Assembly: GCA_947632645.1 (NCBI GenBank)
Contig: CANRQB010000004.1
Coordinates: 1-60,853, forward strand
DNA from: an uncultured Clostridia bacterium
Lineage (GTDB): Bacteria > Bacillota > Clostridia > Christensenellales > UBA1242
Length of the DNA: 60,853 nt
Reading direction: 5' to 3'
Both the position numbers and the translations under genes were made by a program. Each line of letters begins with the position of its first letter. Position 1 is the stretch's first letter. Below the pieces are notes generated by a model. The model worked only from the letters and a program-made list of their open reading frames with translations. It was not told where the DNA came from and made no database searches. Of this stretch, positions 6,983 to 55,026 are shown piece by piece.

Positions 6983-7759
6983 TTAATTATCAACTTGCAA
7001 AGTGTTAAAATCTTTATAAAAATCGAATTGTTGGTTTTCGCTGGCAATAATTGTGCCGGTGTATTCGCATAAAATGGTGGCGGCAAGTGGGTGATAGTTT
7101 GCAGGCAGAGTAGAAAATAGGTTATCTATAAGCAAGTATTTTGGCGCTCTTATAACCGCGCGCAATAGGCACAAAATTTGCTGCTCATATTTGTTTAGCT
7201 TGTTTGCCTTTAACTTTTTTATTTTTAACAAATCAATTGATTGATTATTAAAATTTTTTGCATTTTTATCAATTTTTTCATCAATTTTTTCATTTAAAAG
7301 CGCATTTTTATCTTTAATTTTGTTGTCGACTTTAAAGTTGATTGATTTTTGGTTATTAGCTTTTTGATTGTTATAATTTAAATCTATTTTATTTTGTTCA
7401 GTTTTATCCATCAAAAAAGATAGGTGACTAATAATGGCATTTTCAACAATTTCATCCGCGTTTTTTATCTTGCGCAATTTAAGTGGAAAAATTAAATTTT
7501 TGTATACACTTTTGTGTTTAAACAAAACTGGAGTTTCTGGCAAATAGGCAAAGGGTAGATCGCGATTTCTTATATCTTTTAAATTGATGCCGTCGTAAAA
7601 AATGTCGCCGTCAAACTTATCCATTTTTGCCAGCAAGCGCAAAACAATTTTGCCATTATCCCCAAGCAAAAGAGTGTTGCCATCAATTTCTGCATTGTAG
7701 CCTAACAGCGCATAATATTCGCGCACATATTTAACGCTTACATTTTGAATTTCAATCAT
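6983..7759 (-). CDS. ABC-transporter-like ATPase with degenerate nucleotide-binding motifs
   Basis: 'MIEIQNVSVKY', 'FDGDIFYDGINLKDI', 'NKYEQQILCLLRAVIRAPKYLLIDNLFSTL' align with ABC ATPases; Walker A and Walker B Glu are not conserved; N/K-rich insert. Confidence 0.7.
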   Translation of the reverse strand: MIEIQNVSVKYVREYYALLGYNAEIDGNTLLLGDNGKIVLRLLAKMDKFDGDIFYDGINLKDIRNRDLPFAYLPETPVLFKHKSVYKNLIFPLKLRKIKNADEIVENAIISHLSFLMDKTEQNKIDLNYNNQKANNQKSINFKVDNKIKDKNALLNEKIDEKIDKNAKNFNNQSIDLLKIKKLKANKLNKYEQQILCLLRAVIRAPKYLLIDNLFSTLPANYHPLAATILCEYTGTIIASENQQFDFYKDFNTLQVDN

Positions 7760-7902
7760 ACAAACATTATATATCAGTTTGGCAAATTTTGCAATTAAAT
7801 TTTATACATGGGAAAACAAAAAGTACAATAGAATCTCTGATAGGTTGTAGTTTCGTATTGCTTATCAAAATATGCAAATAATTATAAAATTTTAACAACA
7901 TT

Positions 7903-8543
7903 ATTACTATTGTAATATTTTAATTAAAAATCTTGTTTTTTTTGTAACTTTATATAAATCGTAAATTTACAGATTTGCAATAAAAATTTAAAAATTATAA
8001 TCAAAAACACCCCAAAACCATTAAAAATGGCTAAAATTTTAACAAATTCAATAAAAAATAAGCAGTTTTGCAATTTTCAACAAAAATGCCTATCAAATTT
8101 TATAGAATAATATAATTTATTTAAATCCATTATTACTATTGTAATAATCCTAATTATATATACTAGTTTTATTTATAATTAATAGAAATAATATTATATT
8201 ACTATTGTAATAAGCAATAACCAAAAAACTTTATTACTATTGTAATAATGCCTTAATAACTAAAGTTATAACGAATATTGCCTGATTGTTTTTATAATAA
8301 ATATCTTAATTACTATTGTAATAATCCTAATAACCACAAACTTTATTACTATTGTAATAATGATGCTTTAATAACTAAAGTTATAACGGTTAATATTATT
8401 CATACTATTTATGTTTTAATAACTAAAGTTATAATGATAGTTGTTTTAATTATTCATGGTATTAATAACTAATGTTATAATGATATTTGTTTTAATTACT
8501 ATTGTAATAATGATTTTTTTAATATCTTTATAACTAAAGTTAT
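7903..8543. repeat. Cluster of 12 short AT-rich palindromes of two types
   Basis: Type A ATTACTATTGTAAT at 7903, 8132, 8198, 8233, 8309, 8345, 8495; type B ATAACTAAAGTTAT at 8256, 8371, 8419, 8465 (variant TAAT loop), 8530. Confidence 0.9.
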
Positions 8544-8571
8544 AATTTGCTAGTTTTACAATATTAATAAT

Positions 8572-9687
8572 TTATTTAGTTAAATTTGCAAAGTTAAGAT
8601 ATCCACTGCCTTCGATGTTTTTGTCGCCAGTTATTGGGGTGCAGTTGCTAAGTAAAAATTGTTTTATTTGGTTATTTGTGGCATTTGGGTAGCGGGATAA
8701 AATGTCCGCACAGATGCCTGCAACTATGGGTGCGGCAACACTTGTGCCACTCATGGTTGTGGTGGGTGGCAGGGTATTATTAAAGGACGAAACATTAATG
8801 CCGGGCGCAAGTAAATCAGGCTTGCTGCCATAAATTGTTGGCCCGCGGCTAGAAAAGTCAGGCACTGACATATTGCCGCAATCAAGCGCACCAACCGTGA
8901 TAATATTTGGATTGTTGCCCGGGCTTTTTATGGTGTTGTTTTCTGGCCCGCTGTTGCCCGACGCCGCTACAACCACCAGCCCGCGTTTCCAAAGTGCTTC
9001 TGCACCTTTGCTTAGCGGATCGTCGCCGTCAAGCGAATTTGCACCAAAACTCATGCACACAACTTTAATATTATACGCCTTATGATTTTCGTACACCCAC
9101 TGCATGGCATCCAGTATAGTGTCGCTAGTGCTGTTGCCTTCGCTGTTAAGCGCTTTTATTATAACCAAATCGGCAAGCGGTGCATACCCACACGGGGTAT
9201 GGGTATATTTATTGCTACCACCAGCCACACCAGAAACAAATGTGCCATGGCCGTTATCGTCATATGGGGTGGGGTGCTTGTTAACCAAATCGATAAATTT
9301 TTTAATTTTGCACTTTGGAAAAACAAAGCCAAGATGCAAATAAACGCCAGTATCTATAACGCAAATTGTTTGGCCCTGACCTAAATATTTATTTTCAGTT
9401 AAATTACTAAGATGCATAATATCTGCATCATTTTCGGCAAACACTTTTGTATTTTCGCTAATAAAATGCACATGATTTTGGTTAGAAAGTTGCTTTATTT
9501 CGTTAAAATTGGCATTTGCACTAAAACAATTTGCAAATCGATATGGCTTAAAAGGTATATTGTTATTTATTAAAAAATGCTTACAGTCATCAAAATTTGT
9601 GGCAGAAATAAGCACTTCATTTTTAATATTTTCATCCAAAATCTGCACTCGGCTAACAAGCGCGCTGCTTATTTTATTTTTGTTCAT
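8572..9687 (-). CDS. S8 family (subtilisin-like) serine peptidase
   Basis: Catalytic triad motifs 'VIDTGV', 'NGHGTFVSG', 'SGTSVAAPIVAGI'. Confidence 0.95.
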   Translation of the reverse strand: MNKNKISSALVSRVQILDENIKNEVLISATNFDDCKHFLINNNIPFKPYRFANCFSANANFNEIKQLSNQNHVHFISENTKVFAENDADIMHLSNLTENKYLGQGQTICVIDTGVYLHLGFVFPKCKIKKFIDLVNKHPTPYDDNGHGTFVSGVAGGSNKYTHTPCGYAPLADLVIIKALNSEGNSTSDTILDAMQWVYENHKAYNIKVVCMSFGANSLDGDDPLSKGAEALWKRGLVVVAASGNSGPENNTIKSPGNNPNIITVGALDCGNMSVPDFSSRGPTIYGSKPDLLAPGINVSSFNNTLPPTTTMSGTSVAAPIVAGICADILSRYPNATNNQIKQFLLSNCTPITGDKNIEGSGYLNFANLTK

Positions 9688-54484: not shown

Positions 54485-54594
54485 TTTTCCTCCTTTCATG
54501 TAAAATATATCATAAATTAATACCAAATGTCAACTAAATTTATCATAATTTCGTACTATTATTTTGGTAACAAAAAATGATATAAAATAATTTT

Positions 54595-55026
54595 ATGGAT
54601 AAATTTTATAAAAGATTAAATGAGTTTATAGAAGAACATTCAATAATTGTTCCCAAAATGGCAATTGAATTGGGATATAAATACAAATCACCATTGTATA
54701 GATTGATTAATGGGCAAGGTTACCCAAGATTAGACAAAGCAATAAAATTGGCAGATTATTTTAATTGCTCGCTAGATTATTTGTTTGGTTTGTCTGACGA
54801 TAATTCACAAAACAATTTTAAGCAGCCGCGCCCGTTTGATGAACAACTAAGAAAGGTGCTTAAAGAAAAAGGGGTACATCAAAATCAACTTATTGTTGAC
54901 GGAAAATTTTCGGCAAATTGCATGCACAACTGGTTTAAATTAAAAGCCAATCCGCAAATGGACACGGTGATTAGGTTGGCAGAATATTTGGGCGAAAGTT
55001 TGGATTATTTGGTGGGAAGAGTTTAA
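54595..55026 (+). CDS. XRE-like regulator with two tandem HTH-like repeats
   Basis: 'PRLDKAIKLADYFNCSLDYLFGLS' and 'PQMDTVIRLAEYLGESLDYLVGRV' are duplicated XRE C-terminal signatures. Confidence 0.8.
   Translation: MDKFYKRLNEFIEEHSIIVPKMAIELGYKYKSPLYRLINGQGYPRLDKAIKLADYFNCSLDYLFGLSDDNSQNNFKQPRPFDEQLRKVLKEKGVHQNQLIVDGKFSANCMHNWFKLKANPQMDTVIRLAEYLGESLDYLVGRV

Follow-up and report, generated by a model that had tools for sequence, protein, structure and literature searches.

AT-rich palindrome arrays with XRE-operator-like cores form a species-specific intergenic repeat family in an uncultured Clostridia bacterium

The 12 AT-rich mini-palindromes located at positions 7,903–8,543 of the analyzed DNA (the window, a stretch of 60,853 nucleotides) are one array of an amplified, dispersed and species-specific repeat family in the genome of an uncultured Clostridia bacterium (885 kb, 28 contigs, 88.5% complete). 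Judged by sequence identity, the cores of these repeats are the same as the operators of small XRE (Cro/CI-type, HTH_3) repressors of related bacteria. The explanation that we favor, at a little better than an even chance, is a species-specific REP/minisatellite-like repeat family that was built on XRE operators and whose arrays are possibly repressor sponges.

The Array in the Window

The first-pass annotation had reported 12 mini-palindromes of two types, following one another as A A A A B A A B B B A B, and all 12 were recovered in place and in this sequence (Table 1): seven have the type A sequence ATTACTATTGTAAT, four the type B sequence ATAACTAAAGTTAT and one is the type B variant ATAACTAATGTTAT, with no further exact copies within the window. 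The spacing had been given as ~35–229 bp, of which the upper value holds, but the smallest start-to-start distance is really 23 bp (8,233 to 8,256). The array sits, as described, between the genes of an S8 peptidase and a weak ABC-ATPase, both on the minus strand, and the two genes adjoin each other in most relatives too. What had been overlooked are a third palindrome type, ATAACTATAGTTAT, and a longer unit that surrounds the palindrome.

Table 1. Coordinates of the array, its flanking genes and further repeats and genes discussed in the text (window positions unless a contig or locus is given).
Feature	Position	Strand	Remarks
Intergenic region holding the array	7760..8571	.	about 811–813 bp, 18% GC
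Type A core ATTACTATTGTAAT	7903..7916	+	isolated, weak flanks
Type A core	8132..8145	+	
Type A core	8198..8211	+	
Type A core	8233..8246	+	first of an A-B pair; pair duplicated at 8345/8371
Type B core ATAACTAAAGTTAT	8256..8269	+	
Type A core	8309..8322	+	
Type A core	8345..8358	+	
Type B core	8371..8384	+	
Type B core	8419..8432	+	
Type B variant core ATAACTAATGTTAT	8465..8478	+	
Type A core	8495..8508	+	within near-consensus unit GTTTTAATTACTATTGTAATAATGA (8489–8513)
Type B core	8530..8543	+	
Degenerate tandem repeat	8197..8361	+	period 36, 4.5 copies, 64% matches (Tandem Repeats Finder)
Flanking gene, S8 subtilase-family peptidase	8572..9687	-	PF00082
Flanking gene, degenerate ABC-ATPase (weak)	6983..7759	-	PF00005
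Second repeat, long copy	G000:C3:9434-9632 (L036:2935-3133)		plus fragments
Second repeat, long copy	G000:C22:6238-6427		
Second repeat, long copy	G000:C10:11112-11252		
Tandem-HTH paralogue	54586-55023	+	in the window
Tandem-HTH paralogue	G000:C22:9987-10373		
Tandem-HTH paralogue	C2:10538-10924		

A Repeat Family in Eighteen Intergenic Arrays

A genome-wide count of both types, which had been proposed as a check, places them far above chance: the A core 12-mer TTACTATTGTAA occurs in 53 copies and the B core 12-mer TAACTAAAGTTA in 35, and the reversed-pattern controls, which yielded 0 for either, rule out chance or AT-richness. A third core (type C), TAACTATAGTTA, is a perfect palindrome and is clustered like A and B, and the third palindrome type ATAACTATAGTTAT was counted in 22 copies in the sampled arrays. 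The A copies without exception, and nearly all other cores, fall in 18 intergenic arrays of 1–14 sites each. When degenerate cores are included, there are 101 exact, 35 one-mismatch and 20 two-mismatch cores, compared to 0, 0.4, and 3.9 in shuffled sequence, and the family comprises ~150 units (101 exact and ~50 mutated cores). The first-pass annotation had itself named two outcomes that would speak against its observation, namely a scatter of the motifs over the genome at background frequency, or absence from the closest relatives together with local slippage. The absence from relatives is real, the scatter was not found, and local slippage is ruled out because the 18 unlinked arrays share one common unit. 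A phage or plasmid origin was rejected as well, as blastn searches against phages and plasmids gave no match; three pattern matches in viral contigs have about two sites apiece and form no array. Literature searches with the exact motifs returned chance 12-mers only, and those on palindrome or XRE arrays nothing relevant.

The genome also contains a second dispersed repeat of ~200 bp, which is GC-richer and has terminal hairpins of the types CTTTTCTATGCTAGAAAAG and CTTACTTTTAAAAAGTAAG. Three long copies lie directly beside palindrome arrays (Table 1), and ~18 partial matches occur in the genome.

Repeat Unit and Conservation of the Cores

Alignment of the flanks results in an asymmetric consensus unit of ~26 bp, GTTTTAATWACTAWWGTWATAAYGGA, which is mostly repeated every 25–40 bp and for which Tandem Repeats Finder gives degenerate periods of 33–36 bp in the arrays, and arrays on different contigs align mutually at 65–85%. 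The orientation of the flank is uniform within most arrays and independent of the direction of transcription, and the AT-only loop occurs in either orientation relative to the flank. Spacings of 21–132 bp, degenerate units and the presence of both orientations differ from the identical repeats and constant-length unique spacers of CRISPR arrays, and a 10.5-bp helical phasing was looked for in the spacings and not found.

The core itself is a 14-bp dyad with an AT-only center and two half-site classes, ATTAC/GTAAT and ATAAC/GTTAT. The two halves of a core nearly always belong to the same class (59 TTAC..GTAA and 59 TAAC..GTTA; hybrids number 4, against an expectation of 61 under independent halves), and the loop is linked to the class, TATT going with TTAC and TAAA or TATA with TAAC. 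In aligned array pieces the mismatch rate amounts to 5.9% in the core vs. 17.4% outside (odds ratio 3.3), which is moderate evidence of constraint on the cores because the alignment favors them to some degree. An intact core precedes 21 of the 26 AAYGGA flanks in the arrays, and only 19% of the intact cores have kept this flank.

Identical Cores in XRE Promoters of Relatives

In congeners and in two Clostridia of 50% GC, the same 12-mers fill the spacer of a TTGACW-N17/18-TATAAT promoter beside an XRE gene, assigned to HTH_3 by Pfam. G014 has an array between two divergent small XRE-type genes (L095), and in G014, G013, and G002 the dyad (type C or loop variants) fills the 17-bp spacer of a promoter of the form TTGACT-N17-TAATAT or TATAAT, which points away from the XRE gene. 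The type A 12-mer was found, by sequence alone, before another XRE subfamily (sub-II) in G005, G003, and G009, where the promoter reads TTGACT-TCTTACAATAGTAAGAG-TATAAT on the reverse strand. A paired-site scan over 85,462 GTDB species that was blind to XRE genes matched 14 contigs, and two of its Clostridia matches (L184 and L187, from the GC-50% genomes) are XRE-gene promoters with three sites each. XRE promoters hold 3 of the 17 A matches within congeners, a figure that becomes 2 of 16 if near-identical loci are counted once; the respective chance probabilities are ~5e-6 and ~5e-4 on the estimate that XRE promoters make up 0.2% of the genome. The independent cases within the genus are few, about two for A and two for C, and where a single match in a relative lies elsewhere than in an XRE promoter, it mostly looks like chance. 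Among the candidates listed by the first-pass annotation, an array of DNA-binding sites, by its operator match, and amplified selfish hairpins are supported together, and nothing was found in support of a partition or nucleoid site or of a recombination target.

In the array-bearing genome, none of the XRE-gene promoters was found to have an A, B, or C site, with 15 HTH_3 matches in the 88.5% complete assembly. The closest homologue of xreL (C3:3016, 54% identity) has no clear dyad upstream, and the orthologue of sub-II, the TTAC-subfamily (G000:C8:16157), shares the layout of the promoter, its half sites being CCCG instead. As the assembly is incomplete, the cognate XRE may be encoded in the missing 12%; it may also be one of the present proteins acting elsewhere, or it may have been lost.

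Several further observations concern HTH proteins and similar sites. Many small XRE genes of the genus have a dyad near the TTGACW element in a divergent promoter (L119, L118, L151, L155), and the half site differs by regulator: CCCG, CTCA, TTAC, GTAACA (L119 = G000:C8:16157, L118 = G000:C25:2173, L151, L155). Four consecutive small XRE genes form an operon-like cluster in G013 (L103:1674-2527), where the cluster is divergent from another small XRE gene, and in G021 (L177:1306-2171). Proteins of ~146–153 aa with two tandem XRE-type HTH domains are present as three paralogues in the array-bearing genome (Table 1), and similar matches in congeners are long open frames. Two ATTACAATAGTAAT sites 21 bp apart lie directly upstream of an HTH gene on a Methanomethylicales archaeon contig (L182:813-845), and tandem TTACAATAGTAA or TTACTATAGTAA sites with 21-bp spacing occur in unrelated bacteria, namely in Anabaena (L183:3661-3735) and in a Peptococcaceae contig (L186:5026-5079).

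Lineage Restriction and Genomic Position

Conservation in relatives, another proposed check, was examined in 33 congeners, and the array family is not conserved: the cores are essentially absent, only G014 exceeds a handful of sites, and G014 is also the only congener with arrays, of its own kind (a partial case), the other 32 having none. Inspection of 400 kb from the congeners G011, G020, and G005 revealed no arrays of other motifs. The gap between the S8 and ABC genes measures 21–102 bp in nearly all relatives and 251 bp in G014, compared to 813 bp here. On contig C13, array-holding gaps of 632 bp (peptide deformylase, def, to fmt), 423 bp (RNA methyltransferase to MiaB-like) and 145 bp (MiaB-like to HIT) correspond to 5, 13, and 24 bp in G011. 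Since gaps of 5–100 bp in relatives are matched by arrays of 145–813 bp here, the comparison of gap lengths indicates that the arrays invaded this lineage, and, with the C13 genes being nearly contiguous in G011, that they expanded gaps inside operons. All 18 array gaps are convergent or co-directional and none lies between divergent genes (chance 0.001–0.015, from the window's own gene order). The neighbors are housekeeping genes (uvrA, tilS, def, fmt, rsmE-like, radC, dnaB, nifU-like, rubrerythrin, mscL) and have no common theme, by which a regulon of related genes was ruled out.

Comparison With Known Systems

REP elements, BIMEs and REPINs are repeats associated with RAYT/TnpA_REP (PMC2817692, PMC3116915). 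The arrays resemble them as clustered, species-specific, short palindromes at gene ends and between genes that possibly bind protein, and with >100 exact cores, nearly all in the 18 intergenic arrays, they are high-copy and limited to extragenic space. However, REPs are GC-rich elements of 20–40 nt with a GTAG head, whereas the arrays have an AT-rich 14-bp core with a 4-nt center. The consensus, with its AT-rich stem, lacks a GTAG/CTAG tetranucleotide adjoining an imperfect GC-rich stem, and no REP-type Y1 tyrosine transposase (RAYT, PF01797) was found in the 88.5% complete genome, by which Y1-transposase mobility was ruled out. Unlike REPs, the arrays are loose tandem arrays of up to ~14 units with a core identical to XRE operators.

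With XRE operators the arrays share the 14-bp dyad and the identical 12-mers TTACTATTGTAA (G005, G003, G009, L184, L187) and TAACTATAGTTA or its loop variants (G014, G013, G002). The operator of phage 434 is likewise 14 bp in size. XRE operators normally comprise 2–3 sites between divergent genes and, unlike the arrays, are accompanied by a −35 element; here up to 14 sites form arrays that are never divergent, and overlap with a regulated promoter was not found, the local XRE genes being without a site. Because two REP-defining features and the promoter position of operators are lacking, the arrays, which are REP/BIME-like in distribution and XRE-operator-like in sequence, are filed in neither class.

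The principle of DNA sponges is known from nature, and synthetic decoy sites exist in Escherichia coli (PMC7686491). By analogy, a repressor would be titrated by a site of its own that is present in many copies outside promoters; unlike synthetic sponges, the arrays are natural, dispersed and invasive, and their titration is putative. The arrays also resemble families of repeated, intergenic stem-loop sequences surveyed in cultured bacterial genomes, and in the accessible part of that survey neither the array-bearing clade nor the motif appears (PMC2267715).

Origin and Possible Function of the Arrays

In the explanation favored here, the seed of the family would have been a piece of an autoregulatory XRE promoter with its operators, which would have multiplied by tandem duplication and by copying between intergenic regions in a REP/BIME-like manner; no insertion signature was identified. 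XRE-type dimers would bind the cores in this organism, and the cores may stay intact because of this binding. The arrays may then act as a chromosomal repressor sponge by titration, tentative as this role is, or they may merely tolerate binding. A more far-reaching version, in which operators were turned into a mobile REP-like repeat that co-amplified two XRE specificities, kept the sites symmetrical and titrates or sequesters XRE repressors such as those of incoming elements, appears rather doubtful to us.

Selfish or neutral REP/minisatellite-like repeats, spread by slippage, recombination or an unknown transposase and accumulating at the least harmful places such as 3′ ends and operon gaps, are a possible alternative to which we give a minority of our confidence; the likeness to operators would reflect ancestry or coincidence, and nothing would bind today. 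The species-specific amplification, the invaded operon gaps, the avoidance of divergent intergenic regions, the housekeeping neighbors and the failure to find a cognate regulator promoter in the genome all agree with neutral spread. Plain decay, however, would not yield cores that are nearly always symmetrical and whose conservation exceeds that of the other positions in the aligned pieces ~3-fold, and the identity to XRE operators recurs across independent lineages.

That the units are transcribed stem-loops serving as terminators, processing or stability elements is quite improbable. Many arrays do follow genes or sit within operons, stems of 5–8 bp with 4-nt loops could form, and the symmetrical changes of the half sites look compensatory, but single units fold weakly (−1.4 to −2.5 kcal/mol, z −0.1 to −1.1), a GC-rich stem with a U-tract is absent, and the orientation ignores transcription. 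Rfam gave tRNAs only in six array loci, and with this and the weak folding a terminator or RNA element was rejected as the main reading. Even less probable is that the arrays bind a protein of chromosome partition, nucleoid occlusion or macrodomain organization: palindromic sites clustered around the genome and outside genes would suit such a role in chromosome organization, but these sites are normally conserved in a genus, in which nearly all congeners here have no arrays, the clusters are large and degenerate, and the known sites that match are XRE promoters rather than parS-like loci.

Significance

Streamlined genomes, such as this one of <1 Mb, are expected to lose spacer DNA, whereas this genome gained hundreds of bases in operons whose gaps are held at 5–50 bp in relatives. 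From the recurrent placement of the XRE dyad in the TTGACW-N17/18-TATAAT spacer, the operators of many small XRE repressors in the clade can be predicted. Even if the arrays are neutral, they add an AT-rich, transposase-less class to the REP-like repeats, with an operator as putative seed. If the cores are bound, the family would provide an example from nature of a transcription-factor site that spreads as a repeat element, and it would offer a direct test of whether decoy operators are selected.
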